Below, piece by piece: positions 1 through 64,000 of a DNA stretch of 64,000 nt; within the stretch, counting starts at the first letter, position 1; every line of letters begins with the position of its first letter. The notes below the pieces were generated by a model that saw only the letters and a list, made by a program, of their open reading frames with translations, did not search any database and was not told the DNA's origin. The stretch spans positions 55,858,406-55,922,405 of the forward strand of contig NC_065542.1 of NCBI RefSeq assembly GCF_932294415.1, in the 5' to 3' direction. The position numbers and the translations under genes were made by a program. This stretch comes from Quercus robur (Eukaryota > Streptophyta > Magnoliopsida > Fagales > Fagaceae).

Positions 1-189
1 CCAGTATCACATTCACCCTTATGAGAGAAAATGTTGAATATATGACTATGGCCTTGACTCTGTCTTAAAGTGAACTTGGAATTTTAAACTCCGTCATAGT
101 TTGTTAACTTCATGAATTATTTTGATGCTATTTTCCAGCTCGAGAAGTTATTGATGACATAAATTTGTTTGTTATGGTTTCCTAACTTT
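1..189. other. Unassigned AT-rich DNA
   Basis: No reading frame, repeat or motif that I recognise lies here. It borders the first copy of a direct repeat that starts near 190. Confidence 0.5.
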
Positions 190-823
190 AAGCTTCCCTG
201 CCAGTGACTTCAACAGGTTACTGGATTATGAGGTAGACACCTATAGGAAGTCTTTTTATTTGTTGATTGTTCAATAAATTTTTTACTAGTATATATATAT
301 ATATATATATATCTTTGACGTGTACAGGGAACTGAGATACTTTGTACGTCAGACCAAAAGCAAAGTGATTGGATACCACACATGGGCTTAGAAATTTGAA
401 ATATAAAGTTAGGGATAGTGGTTTTACATTGCAATCCTTCGCTACTTCATTGCATCGGTAAAATTTCCTATGAAAGTTCATTGTATTGCGGTCCATTTGT
501 TTGATTTTCAAATTGTCTTTTTCTTTGAGTGTGACTGATCTGACATTGTTTACTTTTTTTTCCTACTCTATGTTTCTTTGGTCTACATATGGGTATCTAT
601 TGTTCAAACCATGCATTGCCTGAATGGGGGACAATTGTTCATGAGCCATAGTCACAACCTCTCCAAGCATCAACAATAGCTGCAATGGCAATGACACCAA
701 GGTATTCTAAATTCTCTATCTCTCATGAGTTTGCATGACTTTTATTCTACCCATTTATTTATTGTTTTTCTGAAATTTAATAATTTGTGTAATTACTTTG
801 TCAAAAAAAAACTTATTTCTCTC
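190..823 (+). repeat. Direct repeat unit, copy 1
   Basis: This segment matches 2858-3450 in the same orientation through several blocks: the opening 'gacttcaacag' block, the (AT)n run followed by 'gtgtacagggaactgagat', the 'catgcattgcc' block, the 'ctccaagcatcaacaatag' block and the 'tgcatgacttttattctac' block. The order of blocks is the same and small indels separate them. I see no long open frame. It is either a local segmental duplication or two copies of an unnamed repeat. The last ~110 bp occur a third time, inverted, at 8900-9011. Confidence 0.7.
290..313. repeat. (AT)n microsatellite
   Basis: Uninterrupted AT dinucleotide run. The paralogous run in the second direct-repeat copy lies at about 2921-2945. 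Confidence 0.9.
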
Positions 824-2227
824 AGTAGACTAAATTACTTACTTTCAACAAAAACAATTGTCAATAACTTTCTTCGTTGGGTTAATTACTTTGTTCTTGT
901 AATTGATTTTTTAATAAATTTTTTTACTTATTTTTAGTGTGCAAATTGGTCTCTACTATTGTTGCTGTAGTTGGCTGCATACACTTTCATTCATAAGAGG
1001 GCTTGTTTTGTTTAAAATTGTTTTTTCTTTTCTTTTATTGCTTGGATATTTTATATTTGGTTTGGTTATGAAGGTTTTTCCTTCTTACTAACTCACACGT
1101 TAACTTAACTTCCAGTCTTCACAGAGGTCAGTGTTTTAATATATTATGATCCCTGTCTTTGTAATTTTTCCTTTTTAATCTATGTTTGGAAGAATGAGTC
1201 AAAATCAGTAACCTTTGCAATGAGACCCTCAAAATGTTTGACAAAATGCTAGAGTATGTCAAGCACTTCATGCAGCACCCCTTTTCTATTGGTTAAAAAA
1301 TATGCTTAATATATTGTAGTATTAAGTGGTTTGTGCTGATGTCTCTTGTACTATAGATTGCTACCAAGCAAAGTGGTTTGTTGGATGATGTTCTCAATCA
1401 TTGTCGGGTCTATGTTTCAATGTGTTTGATGAAATGCCTATAAGAAAGATTAAAAAGAGAAGGTATGGTCATGTTTATACATACAAAAAATAGTGGAAAA
1501 TGTCGATTCAAGAATCCATACTACTACGTTCTTGAGGCTTCATGGAATTTATTGCAACAATGAAGGCAGTAAAAGTATTGATTCTGGGTATGGTTACAAG
1601 TCGTCTCATTAAAATATCATGGCCTCACTCTTTGTCTATTTATAATCTTGCACAAAATTATTAGGAAAAAGATTGTCTCTAAAATTTGTTTTAGCTTTAG
1701 TAAGAAATTGCAGGAAAATGAAGCATGCTCTACCTAATTGGGTGATTTTAATAGCTTTTTTTAAGCCAACCGTGATCTTAGCTGATCTGGGACTCCCCTG
1801 CTTCAACCATTGTTGCGGATTCTTACTTATTAATAAACCATTGTTGCAGGTTCTTGATTTATTTGAGATGAGTCATTCTTCCACTATTTGGTGCTCATAA
1901 ATTCCTCCACTATGGAATTTGAGAAGTTGCTTAATGCTTTGTTAGTGCTCTTTGATAATTTATATGTTGTTGATAGGTTTTGAATAATTTGTACAGTTAT
2001 TATCTGTGTTGTTATTCTTAAATTGTTGCTTTCAGTTATAATTCTGTTGTGGCTGTGTTTTGTATATGGTTTTTTCCTTAATTAAATTTGTGTATCTATT
2101 TAATTGATTAGTAGATTGGTTTAGAATTGTTATGGTATCAATGATGTCTGGTGGTTATTTGACTTATTGGTTATTTCTAACTAGAATGTTGCTAACTATT
2201 GTCATGTAATCCAAATCTAAGTTTAAT
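824..2227. other. AT-rich DNA with a possible PPR relic
   Basis: No sustained coding frame. At 1401-1460 on the + strand one frame reads '..FNVFDEMPIRK..', which resembles the 'vFDEMP.R' core of a plant pentatricopeptide repeat, but the similarity does not extend to neighbouring repeats. Treat it at most as a shred of a PPR gene. The rest holds T-rich tracts only. Confidence 0.25.
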
Positions 2228-2294
2228 ATTATAATTTTCCTCTTTTTTTCTTACTTATCAAAAAAAATAAAAATGAAAATTATAATTTTCCTCT
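2228..2294 (+). mobile_element. Tail-only retrotransposition scar with 16-bp TSD
   Basis: A perfect 16-bp direct repeat, ATTATAATTTTCCTCT, at 2228-2243 and 2279-2294 flanks only 35 bp. The insert carries the motif CTTATCAAAA followed by an A-rich tail. The same CTTATCAAAA end recurs in other scars of this window, for example at 36547 and on the opposite strand at 18987. It reads as a LINE or SINE 3' end inserted after extreme 5' truncation. Confidence 0.75.
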
Positions 2295-2609
2295 ACCATT
2301 AAAAGATGCTGCACAATATATATGTGTAAACCTAATTTGCAGACTTTGTCCAATCCCTAACGTCTTAATTATTCAAAAGAGGGATGATGTTTTTGTCTTG
2401 AATGGTTCTTTAAGTAATTTTATTTGCTGTTATAGTGATTTTTGTTCTTAAGTTTTAGAATTTTTAGACAGATTCTTTCCAAATGGTCATGGTCATGGTG
2501 CAATTGGTTGTTTTGTTTTGGGTTAATAACCAGTTGTAGGTTTGGTTTTTAAAAGCTAGTTTACTTAAAAACTAGAGCCCCCACTCCACTGTTATCCTGC
2601 CTAAATAAA

Positions 2610-2736
2610 CTTTATTTTATTTCATTTTTCGATTGGTATGTTACACACGCACCCAATGTTTCTTGTGCATGACTTCACCCTCCACTTGATGCTTTCAAGG
2701 GAAGGAAGTGCGAATTGAGCTAGAGCTCATTGGCAT
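2610..2736 (-). mobile_element. tRNA-derived SINE, copy 1
   Basis: Read on the minus strand this begins GCCAATGAGCTCTAGCTCAA, containing an A-box-like 'TAGCTCAATTCGC'. It then has 'AGTGGAGGGTGAAGTC' in the B-box position and ends in an A-rich tail. The same order is found at 38321-38443, where the B box reads 'GGTGGGTTCAA'. The layout (A box, B box ~45 nt later, short unique 3' part, poly-A) is that of a plant tRNA-derived SINE. The B box of this copy is decayed. Confidence 0.65.
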
Positions 2737-2857
2737 CTTACCTTTAAGAAAACATTAATTTAATATTTGGTTCAATTGCAAGTATATTGTAATGTGTCCC
2801 CTAGTTTCACAAAGTCCCCTGTCAATCCAATTGCTCTGAAATTAAGAACAAATTAAC

Positions 2858-3450
2858 TTGAGGATTCCGTGCCGGTGACTTCAACAGCTTGCTATATTAT
2901 AAGGTAGACACACACTGAGATATATATATATATATATATATATATCTTTCATGTGTACAAGGAACTGGGATACTTTGGAAGTCAGACTAAAAGCAAAATG
3001 AGCTTATGAAATTTGAAATACAAAGTTTGGGTTTGTTGGTTGTACATTTCAATCCTTCACTACTTCATTGCATTGGTAAAATTTTGCTATCAAAGTTCAT
3101 TGCAATGTGGTCCATTTGTTTTATTTTCAAATTGTCTTTCTGTTTAAGTTTGTGACTGATCTGACAATGTATACCTTTTTTTTCCCCTACTCTATGTTTC
3201 TTTTGTCTAACATATGGGTTTTAATTGTTGAAACCATGCATTGCCAGAATAGGGGACAATGGTTCATGAGCAGTAGCCACAACTCTCCAAGCATCAACAA
3301 TAGCAACTATGGGAATGACAACATGGTATTCCGAAGTCTCTATCTCTCATGACTTTGCATGACTTCTATTCTACTCGTTTATTTTATTGTTTTTCTGAAA
3401 TTTAATAATTTTTGTAATTACTTTGTCGACAAAAAATTATTTCTCTCGGT
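2858..3450 (+). repeat. Direct repeat unit, copy 2
   Basis: Partner of 190-823, same orientation, block by block, including a (TA)n run at about 2921-2945. Its last ~105 bp (from 3345) coincide with the outer end of the left arm of the large inverted repeat, so one breakpoint of the inverted duplication lies inside this unit. Confidence 0.7.
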
Positions 3451-3869
3451 AATTACTTTTCCAATTCCTTCTTTGCACAAAAATCTCTATTAAATCGATA
3501 CCGATAGGGGCATGGGATGGTTTTTACCTCCTGAGTCACACATTTGCTTCCTCTAAAATGGGAAGAAAACTAAGGAGAAAATACAAATATAAAAGAGAGA
3601 TATTATTTTTCCCTTTATGTCTCTCACTCTCCCCATCCTCAGCCGTATGCAAAATTAGGAGATTACTCACCAAAGTCTGAGAAATAAACCAATATTGCAA
3701 GATTTGAATGACTTTTGTGGCATGCTCAAAATCAATTTTACCAAGATCTGAGCGCAGGAACGGACCTATTAAGGGCTCGGGCCCCCCTAGCCTAAAAAAA
3801 AATAAATAAATAAATTAGTAATCATACTCCCCCAACCCCAACCCAGCCCAACCTTACAAGTCCCCCTAG

Positions 3870-4677
3870 TAGGGCTGTCCACAGGTCGGTCCGGGTCGGG
3901 TTTGTGCCCAACCCGCAACCGACCCGATCAGATCGGGTGGAGAAATTCCAGACCCGTCGCCGACCGCGAAAAGCCACCGGGCGAGTCGGATCGGACTCGG
4001 GTGGGCAGCGGTCGGAGTTGATTTCGACCGAAATAAATTGTAACAAACACAGAAGAACCAAAATCAACAAAAATCAACAGAACAAAAATCAAACTTCAGT
4101 GGTTTGATTCCTGAAGAACAAAATCAACAAATCTACAAACCCAAAGAGAAGATCTACAAACCCAAAGAACAGATCCACACATCCAAAGAACAAAAACCCA
4201 AAGAACAGATCCACAAATCCACAGATAACCGAACCTAAGAGATGAAATAGAAAGATTGAATCTGAGAGATGGAGGCGAAGACGAGCTAGGACGTTGCGGA
4301 TGAAGAGCACAGATCAACGACGAAGAGGCAGAGATCGACGATGGAGAGGCATATATCGACGATGACGATCGATGAAGGGTAAACATCGGCAGTTGGATCG
4401 GCGAAGGGTAAGAACTGAGAGTGAGGATGACTTTGGAAAGTAAGGACTGGAATGAGATTGGTTAACAAGCTTCAGACCTTTAAACCCATTGATATGGCGG
4501 TCGGGTCGGGTGGCTCGGGTATTGGAGGAAGAGACCCGCACCCGATCCGTCGGAATCGGTTTTGGAAAGTAAGGACCCGCCGCTGACCGTCGGAGGAGTC
4601 AGATCGGACGGCGGACAGTTCGGGTCCGGTCGGTTTGACCGGGTGGGTCGGATCTGCGGGTTGTTTGGACAGCCCTA
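3870..4677. mobile_element. Non-autonomous hAT element (808 bp)
   Basis: Terminal inverted repeats TAGGGCTGTCCA (3870-3881) and TGGACAGCCCTA (4666-4677) are perfect over 12 bp. They are flanked by a perfect 8-bp target duplication CCCCCTAG (3862-3869 and 4678-4685). An 8-bp TSD and a TAGGG start are diagnostic of hAT. The subterminal regions are GC-rich and rich in CGGGTCGG-type motifs on both sides. No transposase frame is present; the open frames inside are low-complexity shadows. The corresponding place in the right arm of the inverted repeat (about 8460-8475) holds a single uninterrupted copy of the target. Confidence 0.93.
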
Positions 4678-4778
4678 CCCCCTAGTTAGAACAGCCCCGA
4701 GCCCAACACAACCCAAAAAAAATAAAAAAACATGTTAACCCTTTTACAAACCGATCTCAGATTAAAAAAAAAAAAGTC

Positions 4779-4803
4779 GAGAGAGAGAGAGAGAGAGAGA
4801 GAG
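4779..4803. repeat. (GA)n microsatellite
   Basis: GA dinucleotide run inside the left arm. The mirror position in the right arm (about 8361-8372) has a shorter CT run, an easy length marker between arms. Confidence 0.85.
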
Positions 4804-4920
4804 GAATGGAGCGAGTTTAGAGGTGAGACCTAGATCCATGCTGCCACAGATTCCCTTCACGCTGCTGCCATAGCTCTCCTACTGATCCACACGCCGCCAC
4901 ACCCCTCCGCGCCTCCAGCA

Positions 4921-5068
4921 AATGTGTTCCAGATCAAGAAGCATACGCAAAAAGAAATTCCAAAAGGAAGCGAAAAAAAAAGGCTTTGTTTGTCTTCTAC
5001 AACAGGGAAAACTGAAAAACTTAGTTCGTCCTTTGCAAAAACAGGCGATTCAGCAAATAATTCAGAAG
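4921..5068 (+). other. Exon-like segment upstream of the RLP fragment (left arm)
   Basis: An open stretch in the frame reading 'NVFQIKKHTQKEIPKG...' ends at CAGAAG|GTAGGC, a good splice donor (exon end 5068). A plausible acceptor, TTTTTGCAG, ends at 5332 just before the LRR-coding segment. The mirror segment at 8102-8249 of the right arm preserves the frame and the donor. The lysine/serine-rich peptide is not one I recognise and is not a signal peptide, so the normal 5' end of an RLP gene is missing. Whether it was ever an exon is inference from the splice signals. Confidence 0.35.
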
Positions 5069-5332
5069 GTAGGCATGTTTTTTTTCCCCTTTTTTTCTTT
5101 TCTATTCAATTACTGTTTCTAGGGTTTTGAACATTAGAGTAGATTTATTGATGATTTCTCTCAAATTGAAATCGATTTGGTGCTGAAGAACATACATTTA
5201 TGTGTTGCCAAAAAAAATAAAGTTCTGTCATTTCATTTATGTTGTTTTTAATTTTTTGTTGAAATATTTTCCCCCCTTTATATTTTCGTTTCCCATGCCT
5301 CTTTTCTACCATTGTTATTAAGGTTTTTGCAG

Positions 5333-6524
5333 TATATATTTAAAGTTTTTCGATACCGAGCAACGCGCCCTTCTCACCTTCAAGCAAGACCTTATTGATC
5401 CATTAAATCGACTCTCCTCTTGGACTGTTGATGGCGATTGTTGTCACTGGGTCGCTGTTGTCTGCCATAACCTCGCTGCTCACGTCCAACAACTCCATCT
5501 CAAAAGCTTCCCTCCTGTTTGGGATGATTCTATTTCTGACGAACAAAACGGACAGAATTGGGCTCAAGAAGAAGCCTATGAGCGGTCAATGTTTGGTGGT
5601 AAACTAAATCCTTCTCTGCTTGATTTGAAGCATTTGAATTACTTTGACCTCAACTTCAATAATTTCTTTGCTTTTCCCATTCCCTCATTTCTTGGTTAAA
5701 TGAAGAGTTTAACATCTCTTAATCTCTCTTATGCGGGATTTGTGGGACTCATACCTCATTAACTTGGAAATCTCTCCAATTTGCTCTATCTCAATCTCGA
5801 ATGTCCTTGGGTTGATTTATATGTGAATAACCTTCAATGGCTTTCTGGTCTTCCTTTACTACAACATCTCGATATGAGTGGTGTAGATCTTAGCAAAGCC
5901 TCTGATTGGCTACAACTCACAAACACACTCCCTTCCTTGTTTGACTTGTGCTTGTCATCTTCCCAACTTCCTTTCATTCCATCGACACCCACTGTTAACT
6001 TTTCATCACTCCTCACCCTCGATCTTTCAAGGAATCAATTTGAAAACACTTTGATCCCATCATGGATCTTTGGTCTTCGTAATCTTGTTTCTCTTGATCT
6101 ATCTTTCATTAACTTTCAAGGTCCAATCCCTGTTGATTTCCACAACATGACTTCTCTTAAGCACCTCCATCTATCTGGAAACTATTTCCACCATAGACTT
6201 CCTAATAGTTGTCTTGAGTTTCTCAACCTTGGCGTCAGTAGTTTGCAGGGTACAATCTCCAGTGCCATTGGAAACCTAACATCTGCAATTAGTATTGACT
6301 TGTCAAAAAATGAACTTGGAGGAAAGTTGCCAAGATTGTTGGGTAATCTCTGTAACTTAAGGGAAATCAAATTGTCATCCAACGAATGGAGTCAAGAGAT
6401 ATCTGAAATCTTAGAAAGTTTATCAGTGTGTCTTTCAGATAGACTAGAGATCTTAGACTTAAATATTTCTCAACTTCATGGTTATTTGAAGGAAGTCCCC
6501 AACGGCATAGTACTAGACTTATGA
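5333..6524 (+). pseudogene. LRR receptor-like protein (RLP) pseudogene, N-terminal half, left arm
   Basis: From 5358 the frame reads EQRALLTFKQDLIDP, then a DGDCCHW segment: the LRRNT_2 cap of plant cell-surface RLP/RLK proteins with its paired cysteines. LRRs of the 'L..L..LDLS.N.F....IP' plant type follow, to about 6490. The family (EIX2/Cf-type immune receptors) sits in the plasma membrane and senses apoplastic ligands. This copy cannot encode one: it lacks a signal peptide, has in-frame stops at 5697-5699 and 5760-5762, and ends after about eight LRRs without C-terminal LRRs, transmembrane segment or tail. The longest uninterrupted frame is 5781-6524, whose last residues leave the LRR at the inverted-repeat boundary. 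The opposite arm has different lesions, so the two copies decayed independently after duplication. 13 amino-acid differences separate the arms over the ~235 residues I could compare. Confidence 0.88.
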
Positions 6525-6676
6525 CTGTATCACAATATTGTGTACATTTAATAAAAATTTATAGAAAAAATAAGAATAAGAAAAACCTTAAAATCAAGAT
6601 CCAAGGTAGTTTTTATTTATTTCTTTAAAATTGTAGGAAAATTTTCTCCTATTTGGCAAGGGAGGAGAACATTTTA
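6493..6676. other. Spacer between inverted-repeat arms
   Basis: About 185 bp of AT-rich DNA with no symmetry, forming the loop of the potential hairpin. The right end continues an LRR-like frame read on the minus strand for a few codons (…KMFSSLAK at 6649), which suggests the right arm keeps slightly more of the ancestral gene than the left. Confidence 0.7.
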
Positions 6677-7836
6677 TCCGTCAAATGACCATGAAGTTGA
6701 GAAATACTTAAGTCTAAGATCTCTAGTCTATCTGAAAGACACATTGATAAACTTTCTAAGATTTCAGATATCTCTTGACTCCATTCGTTGGATGACAATT
6801 TGATTTCCCTTAAGTTACAGAGATTACCCAATAATCTTGGCAACTTTCCTCCAAGTTCATTTTTTGACAAGTTAATACTAATTGCAGATGTTAGGTTTCC
6901 AATGACACTGGAGATTGTACCCTGCAAACTACTGACGCCAAGGTTGAGAAACTCAAGACGACTATTGGGAAGTCTATGGTGGAAATAGTTTCCAGATAGA
7001 TGGAGGTGCTTAAGAGAAGTCATGTTGTGGAGATCAACAGGGATTGGACCTTGAAAGTTATTGAAAGATAGATCAAGAGAAACAAGATTACGAAGACCAA
7101 AGATCCATGATGGGATCAAAGTATTTTCAAATTGGTTCCTTGAAAGATCGAGGGTGAGGAGTGATGAAAAGTTAACAGTGGGTGTCGGTGGAATGAAAGG
7201 AAGTTGGGAAGATGACAAGCGCAAGTCAAACAAGAAAGGGAGTGTGTTTGTGAGTTGTAGCCAATCAGAGGCTTTGCTAAGATATACACCACTCATATCG
7301 AGATATTGTAGCAAAGGAAGACCAGAAAGCCATTGAAGGTTATTCACATATAAATCAACCCAAGGACATTCGAGATTGAGATAGAGCAAATTGGAGAGAT
7401 TTCCAAGTTGATGAGGTATGAGTCCCACAAATCATGCATAAGAGAGATTAAGAGATGTTAAACTCTTCATTGAACCGAGAAATGAGGGAATGGGAGAAGC
7501 AAGAGAAATTATTGAAGCTGAGGTCAAAGTAATTCAAACGCTTCAAATCAAGCAGAGAAGGATTTAGCTTACCACCAAACATTGACCGCTCATAGGCTTC
7601 TTCTTGAGCCCAATTTTGTTCGTTTTGTTCGTCAGAAATAGAATCATCCCAAATAGGAGGGAAGCTTTTGAGATGGAGTTGTTGGACGTGAGCAGCGAGG
7701 TTATGGCAGACAACAGCGACCCAGTGACAACAATCCCCATCAATAGTCCAAGAGGAGAGTCGATTTAATGGATCAATAAGGTCTTGCTTGAAGGTGAGAA
7801 GGGCACGTAGCTCGGTATCGAAAGACTTTAAATATA
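6649..7836 (-). pseudogene. LRR receptor-like protein pseudogene, N-terminal half, right arm
   Basis: Minus-strand mirror of the left-arm RLP. The LRRNT_2 cap reads ELRALLTFKQDLIDP near 7813-7770, then plant-type LRRs run down to about 6680. Lesions differ from the left arm. One extra base near 7500 shifts the frame relative to the partner (…NNFSCFSHS… instead of …NNFFAFPIP…), and a TGA lies just before the open stretch that starts at 7428 (…LSYA*FVGLIPHQLGN…). The positions of both left-arm stops are sense codons here. The longest frame is 7428-6649. As in the left arm, signal peptide, C-terminal LRRs and membrane anchor are absent. Confidence 0.88.
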
Positions 7837-9011
7837 TATTGCAAAAACCTTAACAACAATGGTAGAAAAGAGGCATGGGAAACGAAAATATAAAGGGGGA
7901 AAAATTTTTCAACAAAAAATTAAAAACAACATAAATGAAATGACAGAACTTTATTTTTTTGGCAACACATAAATGTATGTTCTTCAGCACCAAATCAATT
8001 TCAATTTGAGAGAAATCATCAATAAATCTACTCTAATTTTCAAAACCCTAGAAACAGTAATTGAATAGAAAAGAAAAAAAGGGGAAAAAAAACATGCCTA
8101 CCTTCTGAATTATCTTCTGAATCGCCTGTTTTTGCAGAGGACAAACTAAGTTTTTCAGTTTTCCCTGTTGCAGAAGACAAACAGAGCCTTTTTTTTTTCG
8201 CTTCCTTTTGGAATTTCTTTTTGCGTATGCTTCTTGATCTGGAACACATTTGCTGGAGGTGCTGAGGGGTGTGGCGGCGTGTGGATCAGTAGGAGAGCAA
8301 TGGCAGCAGCGTGAAGGGAATCTGTGGCAGCATGGATTTGGGTCTCACCTCTAAACTCTCTCTCTCTCTCGACTTTTTTTTTTAAGACTGAGATCGGTTT
8401 GTAAAAGGGTTAATAGGTTTTTTTTATTTTTTTTGGGTTGGGTTGGGCTTGGGGCTATTCTAACTAGGGGGACTAGTAAGGTTGGGTTGGGGGGGCCAAT
8501 AAGGGCTGGGTTGGGGTTTGGGGAGTATGATTACTAATTTATTTTTTTAGGCTAGGGGGGCCCGAGCCCTTAATAGGTATGTTCTTGCGCTCAGATCTTG
8601 GTAAAATTGATCTTGAGCATGCCATAAAAGCCATTCAGATCTTGCAATATTGGTTTATTACTCAGACTTTGGTGAGTAATCTCCTAATTTTGCATATGGC
8701 TGAGGATGGGGAGAGTGAGAGACAAAGGGAAAAATAATCTCTCTCTTTTATATTTGTATTTTCTCCTTAGTTTTCTTCCCATTTTAGAGGAAGCAAATGT
8801 GTGACTCAGGAGCTAAAAACCATCCCATGCCCATATCGGTATCGATTTAATAGAGATTTTAGTGCGAAGAAGGAATTGGAAAAGTAATTATCTGGAAAAG
8901 TAATTACCGAGAGAAATAATTTTTTGTCGACAAAGTAATTACACAAATTATTAAATTTCAGAAAGGCAATAAAATAAACGAGTAGAATAAAAGTCATGCA
9001 AAGTCATGAGA
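6677..9011 (-). repeat. Large inverted repeat, right arm
   Basis: Reverse complement of the left arm (3345-6492) without the hAT insertion. The pre-insertion target, read on the minus strand as 'agtCCCCCTAGttag', is intact at about 8460-8475. The outer end at 9011 stops within the short block shared with both direct-repeat units. Confidence 0.93.
8102..8249 (-). other. Exon-like segment upstream of the RLP fragment (right arm)
   Basis: Mirror of 4921-5068. On the minus strand it reads CSRSRSIRKKKFQKEAKKK in one frame and is followed by the same donor-like CAGAAG|GTAGGC. Conservation of both frame and splice signal in the two arms simply follows from recent duplication and does not prove function. 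Confidence 0.3.
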
Positions 9012-9044
9012 ATTTAGATTGTCTTCTCACTCTTTTGTAATGAA

Positions 9045-9160
9045 TGTGCCAATGGGGCTCCTACTTTTAAACTCAATGCTATCACTGTGAGTTCTTGTCA
9101 AATTGATCCAACATTTCCTGCATGGTTACCAAACACAGAAATCTTAAGCATTTTGACATC
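9045..9160 (+). pseudogene. Short RLP leucine-rich fragment outside the inverted repeat
   Basis: The + strand reads FKLNAITVSSCQIDPTFPAWL followed by PNTEILSIL, which matches the central 'fqL..L.L.sC.igp.FP.WL..Q..L..L' segment of EIX/Cf-type RLPs, downstream of the repeats kept in the arms. It is in the same orientation as the left arm. A later piece of the same ancestral gene may therefore lie beyond the inverted copy. The frame closes after about 35 codons. Confidence 0.5.
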
Positions 9161-10280
9161 TCATAGTTAGAATTGCAGATGCTGCCAAACTAGTACTGGA
9201 ATTTGGATATATACCTTGGCTTAAATTGATCAATCTCCCTGAGAAAAAATTTGATTGCAATGTATACAAGGTATTGCTAAATTTCAAACTCATTGATTGA
9301 GCTTTGATTATTTTTCTAGACCAATATCCTCATATTTTTGCCAAAACATGAAAAGAGATTGGCTTGATAATTTTAGATGTATTGGATAAATGTCTATGAG
9401 GATAACTGCATCATTGCCAGATGCACTGGCTATCTTTGAACTGTATTAAAGTCGAACAATAAACCTTCATATGTAATTCACAACTCACTAGCTCCCTCAT
9501 ATAAGCTTGAGCCCTTGTGCTGAACAACAATAGCTTGTTCATAACCGTACCTTTTTCATTGACTACACACATTGTAGGCTTCTTGATCTAGGCTAGATAG
9601 GAGAAATGATGCTCATCCAAAAATGTGGCAATTTGCTTTTCTTTTGGTATTGGATTTTTGCCAATAATAGCCTTTGGACATATACAAAGGTGCTCAAAAG
9701 AACCTAATCCTAACGGTTTCTTCTTTTCTCTAGCACTTTCTAAGAGTCTTTTAATATTCCATATTTGAAAGGAGCATAGACCTTTCAAGTAACTTGTCTG
9801 TATCAGTTTCTATCGAGGTCTTACAGGATTTCATTTCTTGAACTTGTCTCAAAGTCATATGATATTGTTGAAAATCCCTAATTTCTAAATAAACAGTATT
9901 TTTGGCAAAACTGTCCAAGGCATATCTAATTTGTCTTTTCTTGGTTACATGAACTTTCATACAACAAATTTTTTAAAACAATTCCTTCACACACCTAGCC
10001 TAAGATTTTTGATGCATTTAGCTACATTGCCGATCTTGAACTCAATGAAGCTCCTGTTTCCCAAAAGTGCTCAATAAGCAATTAACAAAAATGAGGATGA
10101 CTCTGAAAATTCCTGGTTATGTATAGAAATGAGAGTCGGATGTTCTGTTGGTTCTTGGGGAATCTGTGTAGTTCTCTTCTTCAAAAGGAATTCAAGGCAT
10201 CATGATTTTAGGTTTATCAATGACGCGAAAGATCAATGTGACTACAATGTTAAAAGTGAACTGGTTCCTTGAAATTTTGA
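9161..10280. other. Unassigned gene-like debris
   Basis: On the minus strand 9960-9588 gives two short frames (KVHVTKKRQIRYALDSF… and …KKPLGLGSFEHLCICPK…) with balanced codon composition, so this may be a decayed exon. I do not recognise the family. On the + strand, 9185-9270 has a short open stretch ending in a donor-like AAG|GTATTG. No complete gene can be built. Confidence 0.25.
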
Positions 10281-10978
10281 GTGAGCTGGTATTTGAGCTT
10301 AATTTTTGGGAGGAAAGTCACAGGAAGATGTGTTCTCGCAAAGTCTAGCAATGTTTACCTTCAACTTGAGAGAGGCTTAGTCACTGAGCTTGAGAATCTG
10401 CAGAAGGACAATGTGATAACTGTGCCTGATTGTGTAGGCTCTGGAGGGTTGAAGGATAAGCCTGGTTTTGAATTGTTTGTTAGGCCGGAAAAAGGTGTTT
10501 AAAGAAGTAAATAGCTTGCATAGGAAGAGCTCATCTGTTCTTTATGAATATTCAATACAGTGCCTGTGAGCCATTTGATTTGGGCCTTACATGGAAGTTT
10601 CCTGTAGTTTGGTCGTGTCCACGAGCACCATTACACTCTACTAGGTTCTTAATGGGTAGTGGGAATCAAAGGGGCACTATTGCAATATCTTTTATATCCA
10701 CAGATTTAGAGGAGGGGTTCCCGGGTGCTAATATTGGTGAAGACAGTTGTAAGTTGCAAGTAGACATTTTTCAAGTTGTGCCTTGGTATATTAAGGTCTA
10801 TTATCATACTCTACGAGTTTTTGTTGATGGGCAACCTCAAGCTATTGCTAATGTTGTAGAGAAGATGTATGTTTCACCTTCTGGAGACAAAGTATCGCCT
10901 GGGGGGATGGAACTGGTCCTAATATTTCCTTGTGCTGTGAAATCAGCAGCTTTAACTTTTGAGTTTGATAAGGTATGA
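10281..10978 (+). pseudogene. GPI transamidase subunit PIG-T (GPI16) pseudogene fragment
   Basis: The segment matches plant PIG-T/Gpi16, the ER-membrane GPI-transamidase subunit that helps attach GPI anchors. It has FGRKVTGRCVLAKSSNVYLQ, then LERGLVTELENLQ and PDCVGSGGLKDKPGFEL. After a gap in frame comes FDLGLTWKFPVVWSC, and then VDIFQVVPWYIKVYYHTLRV with an 'FEFDK' end. A frame slip near 10495 separates the first block from VFKEVNSLHRKSS, and a second slip near 10540-10555 separates that from the last block. The similarity stops exactly at GATAAG|GTATGA, a donor-like junction. This points to a genomic piece containing a large exon, and gives no sign of retrocopying (no poly-A seen). The N-terminal third and the transmembrane end are absent. 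Confidence 0.85.
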
Positions 10979-11239
10979 ATCATATGATCTAGCTATTCTT
11001 CACTATGTTTTTTTTTCAGGGGATTTCATTTATTTGATAAAAAAACTTCTTCTAAATCTATGCTGTGGTTTTGTCTGATTGAATCACAGATCTTCTTTGA
11101 TCAGATGCACAATGCTATTTTAAGGTCTCATAAATAAATAACTTTGTAGCTTAGAGTGAAACACTGCCAATTATGTCATGTGTTGCATAGGATGTCAATA
11201 TAGTGACTCTAATAATGAATCCTGCTAATTCATTGAAAT

Positions 11240-11246
11240 GACTTCA

Positions 11247-11282
<36 letters not shown>

Positions 11283-11301
11283 AGAAACGACTTCATAGCT
11301 T
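11240..11301 (-). mobile_element. Tail-only retrotransposition scar with 13-bp TSD
   Basis: GACTTCATAGCTT occurs at 11240-11252 and again at 11289-11301. Between them lie only a run of T and GAGAAAC, i.e. GTTTCTC plus poly-A on the minus strand. This is the signature of target-primed reverse transcription that copied little more than the poly-A tail. Confidence 0.75.
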
Positions 11302-11364
11302 AATAATGGACAAAGTTGATAATGTTATTTATAAATATAGTTTGTCAAGTTCATTAGTTTGAAC

Positions 11365-11575
11365 TTTCATCAACCACCTAGGGCTATAAATGAACCAACC
11401 TGTTTACTAACAGCTCTGGCTCAGCTCAAAATTTTTTTTTTTCCCTCTGTCTATCGAAAAAAATGTTACTTTATTTGGCGAATGAGCCAAGCTCGAGCAT
11501 AAGTTTAAGCTCAGCTATTAAACAAGCCATCCTCAAATGTAATAATGTGTTTGTGAACAAGCTTGTGAACATAGC
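11365..11575. mobile_element. MITE-like repeat, family shared with 15925-16105
   Basis: The blocks 'agggctataaatgaacca', 'agctcagctattaaacaag' and 'aataatgtgtttgtgaac' reappear in the same order at 15925-16105. The GAACAAGC/GAGCTCA-rich composition is typical of short non-autonomous DNA elements in plants. No clear target duplication is left. It abuts and may truncate the 3' end of the neighbouring LINE. Confidence 0.45.
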
Positions 11576-12189
11576 TACCATGAAATCTCCTTTGAAGTCG
11601 AACAATGATACCAGTACAATACCGGAATATTGATCATGTTCATATAAAGCACCATCAATGTTTACCTTTTACCAATCCAAGGGAGGGGGCTTCCAAGAAC
11701 ATCCCTGATTGATACTGAAAGGTTGGGCCTGCGTTATCATAGGACATAATCCACACAATAACACTTTCACTTCACTATGTATCTGCAGTGGTAAACCACT
11801 TCCATCCTCATGAACTATGCTGTTCATGTTTTTCCACGGTGCCCTAGCTATACATAAGAAAGATCCCACTGCCTCTGAATTGAAGAATTTGAATTCATAA
11901 TCTGCACAGCAAGGTCAGTAAAATCCTCCATCTGGCCATCCAATAGCGACAGATTCCCTATATTCCATACAGCTTCTGCAATTGGGCAGCAACTTCACAG
12001 CCTCTAAACAAGTGTTCTATGGTTTCATAATGTTTATTACACAACTTGCACAAAGGATTAAGGATTAAACCTCTTGAACCCAGCACGTGAGCCGTGGGTA
12101 GACTATCATGGAGACAAAGCCATATAAGAAATTGAATCCTTGGGAGTGTTTCAGACTTCCAAACCCATTTAAATGACAAAGTTTCCAGG
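11576..12189 (-). mobile_element. LINE ORF2 3' part: zf-RVT and RNase H-like domains
   Basis: The minus strand reads WVWKSETLPRIQFLIWLCLH, then DSLPTAHVLGSRG and LCKLCNKHYETIEHLFRGCE. This is the zf-RVT module of plant L1-type LINEs, with its C..C....H....C metal-site pattern. Further on it reads WKPPPLDW, a stop, then KVNIDGALYEHDQYSGIVLV, the start of the RNase H-like (RVT_3) domain with the 'NxDGA' aspartate. No poly-A tail is visible at the low-coordinate end, where a MITE-like repeat begins. It continues, with a few residues missing, from the + strand segment 12190-12995. Confidence 0.85.
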
Positions 12190-12995
12190 TTCAGGGGGTT
12201 TAACTTTGTTCTTGATAAGGTCCAAAGTAAGCTAGCTGGGTGGAAGTCTAGATTGCTGTCTAAAGTAGGAAGATTAGTGCTTGCCAAATCTGTTGTTGCC
12301 CCCATTGCAGAGTATTACATGTAGTGCCACAACCTCCCAGCTAAAGTGTGTGATTCCTTTGATAAAATGATGAGGGATTTCATCTGGGGGTCAACTGAGG
12401 AAAGAAGAAGAATGCATATGGTTAGGTGGAGTACTGTTACACTGCCCAAAGAGTTGGGAGGTTTGGGGCTTTATTCAATGAAGCATAGGAATGAAGTCAT
12501 TCTAGCCAAACTTTGTTGGAGGCTTGCTCATGAGGAAGGGAAGCCTTGGGCAAATATGTTGTTAGCAAAATACCTCTGCCCCAGTAGATTGACTGAAGAA
12601 GGAAGAAAATTGCCCTGCTCTCGGATTTGGGTAGCTTGCTAAAAGGGAGGGCCGATCTATGTTAAAGGCTTGAGATGGACTGTTAGGAATGGTGATTCTG
12701 TGAATATGTGGATGGATTTTTGGTTACCTAATGGGAGATTAAGGGAGCTTATTGTTGGTCCCCTGAACTGTGGAGAAGAAGTGTTGACCGTTAGACAATG
12801 TTTTGATGAAAACCATGGTTGGCTGCCTTCAAGCATCTCCTTTGAGCTCCCAGCAAGTGTGCTTGGCACCATTAAGGCCACACCCTTCTCTTATATTCCT
12901 CAAGCTAATGATAGTCTAATGTGGGCCTATTCCAAAAATGGCTCTTTCACTATACAAGCTGCTTACCTCAGTACACAATTATTACTTCACATTTC
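12190..12995 (+). mobile_element. LINE ORF2 middle part, inverted relative to its 3' part
   Basis: The + strand reads FNFVLDKVQSKLAGWKSRLL, SKVGRLVLAKSVVAPIAEYY, a stop, FDKMMRDFIWGS, GGLGLYSMKHRN, one more stop near 12640, GLRWTVRNGDSVNMWMDFW and DSLMWAYSKNGSFTIQAAYL. This is the end of the reverse transcriptase and the linker leading to zf-RVT in plant L1 LINEs. The next piece of the protein lies on the opposite strand at 12189-11576. Outer flank = point nearest the 3' part, inner junction = most 5' part: the geometry produced by twin priming. Confidence 0.88.
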
Positions 12996-14909
12996 ATGGT
13001 ACCCACTTTCTTTAATTAAAACATAAAAATTGTGAAATGATGTTTTTAAAACATAATTTCACAGTTTTAATTGAAATTGAAATATAATTTCAAAACAAGG
13101 AATGCACGATATATATTTTCAAAATTTGAAAAGCAAGAAATCATGGGTTCACTTTTTTTTTTTTTTTTTACTCCAACAAAACCAAAATGGTTTTGGCATA
13201 AACCCCATGAAATTTCTCTCTCTCTCTCTCTCTCTCTCTCGATCAGAGAGAAATTCGAACCCTAGATTTCTCTCTCAATTAGAGAGAAATTTCATGGCAT
13301 AAATAAACCCCATGAAATTTCTCTCTCTCAACAAAACCAAAACGGTTTTGGTACGTTTGGAGGTAAGGGGTTTGGCCACTTCAATATGACGTCATTCGCC
13401 CCATCCTCGACTGGATCTTCACCTCTCTCTCTCTCTTTTTCAATTTTCCATTTCAATTAGGGTTTCTTATTTTCGTTTACTTTAAATCATAGGCGCGAGC
13501 AATTTTCCACTGAATTTGAATGTTTTGGGTGATTACAGGGAGAGAGGACTTGGACTTTGCTTTTGATGATTGCATTTCTGCCTTTTTCTGCTAGACCAGG
13601 AAGGAAGCACTTTTTAGCGTTGAAGAAAGATATTGGGTATTCTCTCTACTACACATTTGCTTTTACTTGTATATGGTTATCAACTACTATGGACTGAAGT
13701 TCACTCACCGCTTCTATAACTTACCAATAAAAACATGGCTGTTGTACATTTTTCGCTTTGAAATATACGAGGCATCAAACATATTTGGGGTTTGGGTTTC
13801 AAATTTGCATCATAGTGGTTGTTGTAGTTTGTTTGGGGTTATGGTTTCAATCTTTGTTAAATATGCATATTTATTGCATGCCTTTTTTCATGTTTGAGAT
13901 AGGGCTTTTAAAGTTTAAACTGTAACTTTTGTATTAGGTTCATCTCCATTTGAAATGGGTTTATTTCGTGGTTTTTATTAAATATTACGAATCTAAAGAT
14001 GTAACGAGTGCCATTCCATAACTTTTAGCCTTTCCCAGCAAGCTTACCAACAAAATGCTTGTGTTTATGTATAAAAGCTTTCTTCTAGAAATTCAATACG
14101 CTTTACATATTCAAGTACTTCTTAGCTTCACATCAAGAATTTTGGCTTACAGCTGAAACAGATGTAAAGTGTGAAATGGATTTGTTGGGTTTGTGGTTTT
14201 ACTTTGCACATAGTGTTTGATACTTTATTTCTCTTATTTTAATCTGTTGATGGTTTTGAGTCCAAGATTTTGGATGGAGTTTCATTTTGGGAGCAGAAAT
14301 TTTAGCGAGTTTGAATCATGATGGATGATATTTATCTGTGTCTTAATTTGATGCTGAATCCAATGATTATCTTCTGGGTTGTATTTGGTTTTCACTTTAT
14401 TATATTATATTAACTAAACATAGTGTTAGGTTCATTACGACAAAGGTTTTGTTGTAGTATTTTTGTACCACTCATGCTGTGAAGAATCACTATCAAAGGA
14501 TGTGTAATTAGTTGAAAAAAATGTTTGGAACTTGTTTAAGCACTTAAAATTGTATGTTTAAAAAGAACAATAAATTTAAAGTTGAGGTCATGTGCATGGC
14601 TACCATGCTTCTGCTTTCCTGCTATTTGGAGTATGTTGTATGTGGTTTGCTTCCTATGACGCATATAATTTGTTTGTTGGTTTTGCTTGCCTTCTGCTAT
14701 TTTTGGCTGAGTTTTTGTATTTCATACATAACTGGACTGTTGATGTCCTAGTAGTTCACCTATATTTTCATTTGTTTTGCATAGAAAAGGGCTCAGAAAG
14801 GGCATAAAAATGCCAAAGCTAAAGAAACATTTGATTGGAGTTTAGAAATGGTGACTAGTAGGAATGTTTGAATTTATTGTCTTCAGACACAAACAAGATT
14901 TAAAAAGAA
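12996..14909. other. Non-coding DNA with CT-rich, locally hairpin-forming stretch
   Basis: 13166-13352 has a local duplication around CT runs. 'caaaaccaaaaYggttttgg' (itself palindromic) occurs at both ends, and 'ccatgaaatttctctctc' occurs at least twice directly and once inverted. 13420-13480 looks like a plant 5' leader (CT-rich, 'attagggtttctta'), and 13560-13640 could be a short decayed exon ending before GTATTC, but no protein family can be named. The remainder to 14909 is AT-rich with no supported feature. Confidence 0.4.
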
Positions 14910-62419: not shown

Positions 62420-64000
62420 TTATATTTCTGTCTGGGATTGATAGAGTTTGGAAGCAAGGCGTGGAGTGAGAAGAACTTCAAGGGGAGTTGCCTTAGGTAA
62501 GGTAATGCCCAACCCTTCCGTCATATCTACCAGCATATTTGATGGGGTCATGAACTCAAATCCCTGAAGCAAGCGAGCTAGTGCCAAGTAAGATACTTGC
62601 AATGCAAATGTGTAACCCGGACAGGCTCGTCTCCCAGACCCAAATGGTATGAACTCAAAATGTTGACCTGAAACATCTATACTTGCATGGCTTGTGAGGA
62701 ACCTCTCTGGTAGAAACTTTTCTGGGTCCTCCCAAATTCTTGGATCTCGGTGCAACTTCCACACATTAACAAGCAAACGAGTACCCTTTGGGATGTAATA
62801 GCCACAAACATGACAATCCTCCATGGCCTCATGTGGAACTGATAGGGGGCTTGGTGGGTACAAGCGCAATGTTTCCTTCACTATGGCTTGGAGGTAAACT
62901 AGATCTTTGATATCATGGTCGTCCACCCACCTATCTCTACCAACCTTGTGATTGAGCTCTTCCTGAGCTTGCTTCAAAGCGTGCTTGTTATTCAATAATA
63001 TGGACGAGCCATGTCAAGTTTAGAGATGTAGTGTCAGAGCCAGCCAAGATGAGATTCTACAATATGAAATTGAGGCCACACTTAATTAGAATTGCACTGG
63101 TTATTAGTTATTACACACGGTGTATGTAACAAAATTTTTCCCTTATTAGAAAGCAATGTTTCTTTATAGGTAAATAAAAGAAAGTACTATCATTATATGA
63201 TAAATTTGAATGAACACGGGTCAAAGTCACTATATATATATATATACCCAATTGATTTTAGGTGTAGAAAAGATTCAATCTATATTTCTTATTCGACAAT
63301 GTAAAAAAATTTACCAATTGAGCCAACTAAAATCAAAAACCAAAATAAAAACATGGTTGATTAATTAAGTAGTGCAATAAATGACTATAACTTACCATTG
63401 CTGTTGCCTTTATAATGGTTTCACGCGTATGGCCAAATGCATCATCCTCAATTTTGGATAACATGACATCGATGAAGTCCAGCTTGTCAGTTGGTTCACT
63501 ACCCTTCAGCCTTCTCATACTATGTTCTTCAACCCAACTTCCTGCTACAGAGTCCAATTCCCTTGCAATACGCTTCATAGATTTTACTTGGCCCAGCAAA
63601 TCAAAACATCCTAGAAATGGAATCAGATCCGAAATGATAGGGACACCAGCTGCGTACATGAAGGCTTTAATATTTTTCCCAATACGTTGTGCCTCTCCAT
63701 CATTTCCATGATTGAAGCTATCAAAATATCTCTTTCCTGCAATCATTTTAGTAATAATATTAAAGGTTAGGCGCTCAACCCACTCACTAATCACCACGTT
63801 GGCTTGGTTGCCCTCGTTGCTCTTGCAGAGAGTGTACAAATCTTTAATCACCGTTTCCACCTCGAATACTTGCACATTCTTTAGTGTTTCAAGCCGACGA
63901 CTAGAGAGGAGTTCTAGCTTGGTTAGCTTTCGCATCATGTGCCAATATTTTCCATAACTGGAAAAACCAAATACTGCATAGTTGTAGCCAAGGTGCTTTC
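62420..64000 (-). CDS. Cytochrome P450, CYP82-like, partial and frameshifted
   Basis: Minus strand. Exon 1 (64000-63396, 5' end outside the window) starts within KHLGYNYAVFGFSSYGKYWH and includes MRKLTKLELLSSRRLETLKN and WVERLTFNIITKMIAGKRY. The donor is ATG|GTAAGT. Exon 2 (63056-62420) starts NLILAGSDTTSLNLTWLV (oxygen-binding I-helix A-G-x-D-T-T). It continues with KETLRLYPPSPLSVPHEA (K-helix E..R), PERF, and FGSGRRACPG, the haem-cysteine loop (F..G.R.C.G), to a TAA at 62420-62422. CYP82 enzymes are ER-anchored monooxygenases of specialised metabolism (terpenoids, phenolics, alkaloids). Between WLV and LLNNKHALKQ, at about 62997-63005, the frame slips by one (or loses two bases), so exon 2 is not continuous. 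Either a recent pseudogene or a sequence error; all catalytic motifs are otherwise intact. Confidence 0.88.

Follow-up and report, generated by a model that had tools for sequence, protein, structure and literature searches.

The window analysed here, a stretch of 64,000 nucleotides (nt) of the Quercus robur genome (assembly GCF_932294415.1, contig NC_065542.1, positions 55,858,406 to 55,922,405 of the forward strand), contains near its beginning a long palindrome, the two arms of which carry the same fragment of a gene for a leucine-rich repeat (LRR) receptor-like protein (RLP). We find that the palindrome is a genuine structural relic of an ordinary and known kind, that it probably lies within an RLP gene and that it is probably silenced. 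The reading that we favour, if with some reserve, is that it is the silenced relic of a single inverted-duplication event inside an LRR-RLP gene and that it has been drifting neutrally.

The inverted repeat, with arms at 3345-6493 and 6677-9011, lies at the place given in the original prediction, which was made from the sequence by a model. Likewise, the two arms of ~2.33 kb and the spacer of ~185 bp described there agree with our measurements, i.e. arms of 2333 and 2335 nt, if an insert in the left arm and one copy of its target duplication are excluded, and 183 nt between them. In the spacer, no internal repeat of at least 13 nt was found. With the same exclusion, the alignment of the arms has 2296 ungapped columns with 2217 matches and 79 mismatches as well as 11 gap events; the identity is 96.6% over ungapped columns and 94.7-97.5% per 200 columns, without a clear gradient. 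Within 2500-10500, exact inverted matches reach a length of 97 nt, while 50 Markov-1 resamplings gave at most 18 nt. Thus, the palindrome did not arise by chance. The description of the hairpin as near-perfect must be qualified, as only 972 of the 2313 left-arm 21-mers (42%) have an error-free match in the right arm. Separately, at 8881-8923, among related TAATTAC words, 16 nt are duplicated in tandem in the right arm but not in the left arm.

The insert in the left arm has terminal inverted repeats (TIRs) of 12 nt, or 13 nt if one flanking base is counted, and is flanked by an 8-bp target-site duplication (CCCCCTAG, copies at 3862-3869 and 4678-4685), as is characteristic of hAT elements; we presume this class from the lengths of the TIRs and the target-site duplication. 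The right arm lacks the insert and has kept the uninterrupted insertion site. Therefore, either the insertion took place in one arm once the duplication had occurred, or the version that was copied had no insert.

Both arms hold the N-terminal part (~380 codons; 379 in the left arm) of an LRR receptor-like protein together with ~1.2 kb of upstream sequence, not counting the insert. Pfam detected LRRNT_2 (E 6e-11 in the left arm and 1.2e-10 in the right arm) as well as LRR_8 (E 1e-11 and 7.7e-16, respectively), and a PDB search with the right-arm reading frame was topped by FLS2, GSO1 and the receptor-like protein 7drb_C, which we take to be RXEG1. Collinear matches of the arms to 7drb_C, a chain of 934 residues, reach about residue 366, and the last part of this match is weak (10.1 bits). 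Thus, the arms share the LRRNT_2 and the LRRs with proteins of this kind; by contrast, they are broken, stop at about residue 366 of 934 and have no intact reading frame. The original prediction held that the arms are non-coding as proteins and that each has its own lesions, and this is what we observed: the left arm is interrupted by two TAA codons in frame while the right arm has a 1-bp insertion, which shifts the frame, and a TGA in the frame of the left arm. A functional LRR-RLP gene would comprise an open reading frame with LRRs, a membrane segment and a tail, and what we found in the arms is a broken N-terminal part only; by eye, no signal peptide was seen ahead of the coding part in either arm. 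Moreover, tblastn with three arm translations (to E 1) detected no intact RLP paralogue in the window; besides the matches of one arm to the other and weak matches to repeats within the arms, it returned a single match at 37460-37350 (E 0.46). Ahead of the RLP part, the left arm has at 5069-5332 an intron-like GT..AG stretch (AAG|GTAGGC ... TTTTTGCAG); where this stretch has its acceptor AG, the right arm has AA.

At its outer end, the left arm overlaps one copy of a direct repeat (183-854/2854-3483; 84% identity by blastn, 89% over the ungapped columns of its main part), the close similarity of which ends near 827/3451 and which had no match to the RLP translations. This repeat passes position 3345 without a break. 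The left arm therefore starts at an arbitrary position within older sequence rather than at an element end. A mobile element with long TIRs or a Pack-MULE, both ends of which should be element ends with a target-site duplication, was rejected because the left-flank copy crosses 3345 and visual inspection of the 20 nt flanking the arms on each side revealed no target-site duplication.

On the other side of the palindrome, the plus strand just past 9011 reads FKLNAITVSSCQIDPTFPAWL in one frame and then, judged by eye, a decayed continuation in another. In searches of PDB, this sequence matched residues 501-534 of 7drb_C (E 0.015, the best match outside the summed repeats) and, when translated across the frameshift with stops given as X, residues 505-551 (E 0.02). 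The simplest order would then be N-terminal part on the plus strand, N-terminal part on the minus strand and later part on the plus strand, with ~135 residues missing and the inverted copy inside the gene; we consider this arrangement quite probable. Several points weigh against this placement inside a gene. The RLP match in 9018-9290 is to one chain, at E 0.015-0.02, and past ~9167 it needs reading through a frameshift. In both result tables, nine WD40-type chains outscore 7drb_C in total by summing repeats; among the three of these for which domains were printed, no single domain had an i-Evalue below 30. The match by which the arm end is placed at residue 366 is itself weak. Finally, the arm proteins had no tblastn match in 9012-9290 (E up to 1), which is expected because the two sequences would hold different LRRs from different parts of the protein but gives the placement no support.

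Long-read assembly is known to produce false long palindromes, by joining two haplotypes, or the two strands of the same molecule, head to head. In the present case, 79 substitutions, 11 indel events and the 808-bp insert separate the arms, and the palindrome is thus not one molecule read back; a join of haplotypes should continue past 9011 into a copy of 2854-3344, but other, RLP-like sequence is found there instead. We consider an assembly artefact highly improbable. The direct repeat spanning 3345 and the RLP-like sequence resuming after 9011, as well as the traces of drift and methylation described below, go beyond the original prediction. The features are collected in Table 1.

Table 1. 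Features of the palindrome and its flanks (positions in the window)
Feature	Position	Strand	Remarks
Direct repeat of 183-854	2854-3483	+	blastn of the window against itself; spans the outer end of the left arm (3345)
Left arm	3345-6493	+	2333 nt without insert and one target copy; upstream region and sense RLP N-terminal part
TATA-like motif (candidate promoter element)	3588-3594	+	CCAAT at 3461; mirrored in the right arm (TATA-like at 8752 and CCAAT at 8879, minus strand)
hAT-like non-autonomous insert	3870-4677	.	808 bp; 12-nt TIRs and 8-bp target duplication CCCCCTAG
RLP N-terminal part, left arm (LRRNT_2 and LRRs)	5355-6493	+	Two in-frame TAA
Spacer/loop	6494-6676	.	183 nt; AATAAA on both strands (plus, 6550; minus, 6617 and 6621)
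Right arm	6677-9011	-	2335 nt; inverted copy of the left-arm segment; RLP sense on the minus strand
RLP N-terminal part, right arm	6677-7817	-	1-bp insertion and TGA
Putative degenerate later part of RLP LRR domain, frameshifted	9012-9290	+	Left-arm orientation, adjoins the right arm; weak match to 7drb_C 501-551 (E 0.015-0.02)

The coding parts of the two arms differ at 35 positions, 24 of them nonsynonymous and 11 synonymous (dN/dS 0.62). A neutral model, which is simple and has assumed transition and G+C weights, gave a mean of 25.3 nonsynonymous differences (2.5-97.5%: 20-30). Moreover, the identity is alike in the upstream part (96.2%) and the coding part (96.9%). We conclude that the arms have drifted as non-coding DNA without detectable protein constraint. 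Divergence that is even along the arms, and alike upstream and in the coding part, is as expected of one event followed by neutral drift.

The arms could instead be paralogues, i.e. two older tandem RLP genes between which an inversion occurred, with a breakpoint after each N-terminal part and loss of intervening sequence. RLPs often lie in tandem clusters, an inversion plus a deletion would leave the same order of parts, and the region already has another old duplication in the direct repeat 183-854/2854-3483. However, genes under selection should differ less in the coding part and show few nonsynonymous differences, whereas the coding and upstream identities found here (96.9% vs 96.2%) are those of neutral divergence; in addition, the arm proteins detected no other RLP in the 64 kb. 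Because there is no sign of protein-gene constraint since the origin of the arms, one duplication event fits better than an inversion between older genes, which we regard as quite unlikely.

The Kimura two-parameter (K2P) distance between the arms is 0.035. At rates of 7e-9 and 2e-9 substitutions per site and year, which are assumed, this corresponds to 2.5 and 8.8 million years, respectively; the true age would be lower because methylation would inflate the divergence. With ~3.5% divergence and a neutral coding pattern, the similarity of the arms can be explained by a fairly recent duplication alone. Selection on a hairpin was considered as the cause of the high identity and rejected because the pattern of divergence is neutral.

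C/T (or G/A) differences between the arms were found at 13 of 165 CG sites, 14 of 209 CHG sites and 28 of 1384 CHH sites. Thus, these transitions are enriched at CG and CHG sites relative to CHH sites (odds ratio 3.8, p=4.6e-6), while transversions show no such excess (odds ratio 1.3, p=0.58), and the transition pattern is the same in the coding and upstream parts. An excess at CHG sites suggests silenced, transposon-like methylation and not gene-body methylation. We infer that the palindrome was probably methylated in the past and is probably silenced DNA. As a control, we analysed five other repeat pairs of the window, and here there are points that count against a trace peculiar to the palindrome. 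The direct repeat (290-827 vs 2923-3451) has a similar tendency (CG 9/18, CHG 4/38, CHH 12/277), and the signature may therefore belong to the whole region. Two further pairs have a high CG rate at few sites, i.e. 21601/33365 (CG 2/4, CHG 2/11, CHH 17/150) and 16114/26049 (CG 5/10, CHG 0/6, CHH 20/115), and two have no excess, i.e. 17242/18199 (CG 3/22, CHG 2/13, CHH 16/108) and 54701/58471 (CG 1/6, CHG 4/23, CHH 9/56); these control pairs decide little because they are short and old or diverged. Also, the C/T differences are unpolarised, as they come from a comparison of the two arms alone. In a separate analysis of strand asymmetry as a trace of transcription, 35 differences on the plus strand fitted C>T or A>G, whereas 20 fitted the reverse changes (p=0.058); this was given no weight because GC skew is positive over most of the window.

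For the origin of the locus by one inverted duplication, we propose the following sequence of events. The first part of the gene, together with ~1.2 kb upstream of it, is present in two copies, the second of which lies reversed behind the first, with the N-terminal parts tail to tail. The remainder of the gene, now decayed, would follow the right arm in the original direction, as the weak but well-placed match suggests, with ~135 codons seemingly missing between the arm part and the later part. Later, both arms have drifted, a hAT-like element has come to lie in one of them, and C/T differences have accumulated at CG and CHG sites. The likeliest activity, if any, would be local self-methylation, in which double-stranded RNA (dsRNA) from occasional transcription through the arms, or RNA polymerase IV transcripts, would give rise to 24-nt small interfering RNAs (siRNAs) that maintain the methylation of the locus. 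Conceivably, the locus might also act in trans and silence related RLP genes.

The original prediction had also stated that read-through would give a very long hairpin. The structural capacity for this is supported by the predicted fold of the 971 nt around the centre, which has an energy of -738.9 kcal/mol, while 20 shuffled sequences averaged -222.2 (z -65; none as good), and by structure a long hairpin RNA from the palindrome is possible. As to the proposal of a candidate hairpin-RNA locus, we retain the hairpin-capable sequence, the non-coding arms and the layout like that of known loci; by contrast, the high identity of the arms is not functional evidence.

In both arms, a CCAAT lies 127 nt upstream of a TATA-like motif and both face inward. 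These pairs are candidate, unproven inward-facing core promoters; since they are kept in both arms, a self-driven hairpin would be allowed. In 2500-9500, counting both strands, there are 29 TATA, 30 CCAAT and 26 AATAAA words, compared with 5.1, 22.4 and 11.6 expected, respectively, and 20 of the 29 TATA words belong to one TA microsatellite. The AATAAA words on both strands of the spacer could end transcripts ahead of the second arm. A scan for bacterial-type promoters and terminators gave 16 and 6 sites, respectively, vs 14.2 and 5.7 expected and is uninformative for a plant. Rfam had no match at the gathering score in 1-14000, and the foldback of the palindrome is far larger than a MIRNA precursor.

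Arms of 2333 and 2335 nt that are 96.6% identical and separated by 183 nt are the long near-complementary arms and short spacer by which inverted-repeat siRNA loci are recognised. The palindrome could thus be an active endogenous inverted-repeat (endoIR) or hairpin-RNA (hpRNA) locus, in which a spacer-crossing transcript would be processed by DCL2/3/4 to 21/22/24-nt siRNAs that lower related RLPs in trans; if each arm has a promoter of its own that faces inward, no outside gene would be needed. The very stable predicted hairpin, the perfect pairing of 972 of 2313 21-mers, and the TATA-like and CCAAT motifs kept in both arms are consistent with such activity. So are two precedents, i.e. the small-RNA-hotspot repeats of rice, which are of the same order as the 2.3-kb arms and 183-nt spacer (PMC7649420), and GmIRCHS (PMC13051633). 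However, transcription could stop at the spacer AATAAA before the second arm, the TATA, CCAAT and AATAAA words are common in the AT-rich 2500-9500, there is neither an Rfam match in 1-14000 nor an intact target within the 64-kb window, and the CG/CHG decay suggests a silenced state. Altogether, we regard an active locus of this kind as doubtful while giving it a modest probability.

At the soybean I locus, GmIRCHS (pseudo-CHS3) consists of a 1,087-bp pseudo-CHS repeat arranged tail to tail around a spacer of 78 bp, and it is the candidate for the CHS-silencing allele (PMC13051633). Like it, the oak locus has two inverted copies of a gene fragment that meet tail to tail across a very short spacer. 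For the rice small-RNA quantitative trait locus hotspots Bin795 and Bin1556, long inverted repeats have been put forward as probable precursors of the hotspot RNAs; their arms measure ~1.3 and 7.4 kb and their spacers 343 and 278 nt, respectively (PMC7649420). The likeness here lies in kilobase arms, a spacer of ~300 nt in rice and 183 nt in oak, and a probable hpRNA. By contrast, GmIRCHS is preceded by the promoter region of a DnaJ gene, its dsRNA has been detected and its phenotype is linked to deletions, and in rice the expression of the repeats and the 21/22/24-nt RNAs were measured, while the oak locus is known from sequence alone. In a rice genotype with a 6.2-kb spacer, small RNAs were near zero, and according to the authors the RNA measure of one repeat disagreed with its small RNAs (PMC7649420). 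The endoIR-siRNAs arise from very long stem-loops and do not need an RNA-dependent RNA polymerase (PMC4687873). By structure, the palindrome is like the long stem-loop precursors of the Arabidopsis loci IR71 and IR2039; for IR71, the precursor accumulates in dcl234 and the siRNAs are known (PMC4687873). Two inverted pseudogene pairs of rice have strand-biased small RNAs, and for the pair that is described the parent gene is without small RNAs (PMC2708354).

The same kind of birth event underlies the 16 Arabidopsis MIRNA loci that were born by inverted gene duplication (PMC1790633). Fahlgren et al. suggest that large young foldbacks may first yield siRNA-like mixtures if a promoter is nearby, and they cite evidence that the duplication that gave rise to MIR163 carried its promoter along (PMC1790633). 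The oak locus differs from young MIRNA loci by its 2.3-kb arms, no discrete miRNA/miRNA* duplex being known for it, and by having no Rfam match. In arm length, spacer and tail-to-tail layout, the palindrome resembles natural loci tied to 21/22/24-nt RNAs or silencing. Among the listed papers examined, we found none on an RLP inverted-repeat siRNA locus, which does not prove that none has been published.

The RLP family is expanding. It has been proposed that inverted duplications may suppress related family members and absorb dosage effects (PMC1820830). Because the inverted copy includes the upstream region of the gene, both arms would have an inward-facing promoter if the hairpin were self-driven. 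The palindrome would then be a silencer in the wreck of its founder gene, with the expression pattern of a receptor gene, and would tune down the RLP family; we consider this very unlikely. If small RNAs are made, the locus would be a natural case of an RLP gene turned hairpin silencer, caught at an early stage with arms 3.5% diverged and still mostly pairable. If none are made, it is an ordinary example of gene fragments that were copied, inverted and silenced.

Downstream of the palindrome, a fragment of the GPI-transamidase gene Gpi16/PIG-T lies at 10284-10972, in two pieces that are 41 nt apart and in different frames (Pfam E 1.2e-25 for 10511-10975). A tblastn search of the window with an approximate PIG-T query revealed no further exon of this gene, and a PDB search with the first piece gave no match to E 1. 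We considered a location of the palindrome in the intron of an expressed housekeeping gene and gave this up because the PIG-T fragment is broken and without a further exon in the window. As this nearest downstream gene fragment is broken and isolated, read-through from a neighbour is not to be assumed. The last readable stretch of the fragment stops at a GT (GATAAG|GTATG), like the end of an exon. Further on, 12136-13023 resembles the end of a plant LINE reverse-transcriptase gene; Pfam gave no family for 12643-13023. Finally, a cytochrome P450 gene lies on the minus strand at 62420-63998 (Pfam p450, E 1.5e-53 for 62423-63013), which like the LRR-RLP points to a plant as the host, and the second open frame of this region, 63333-63998, runs past the end of the window.

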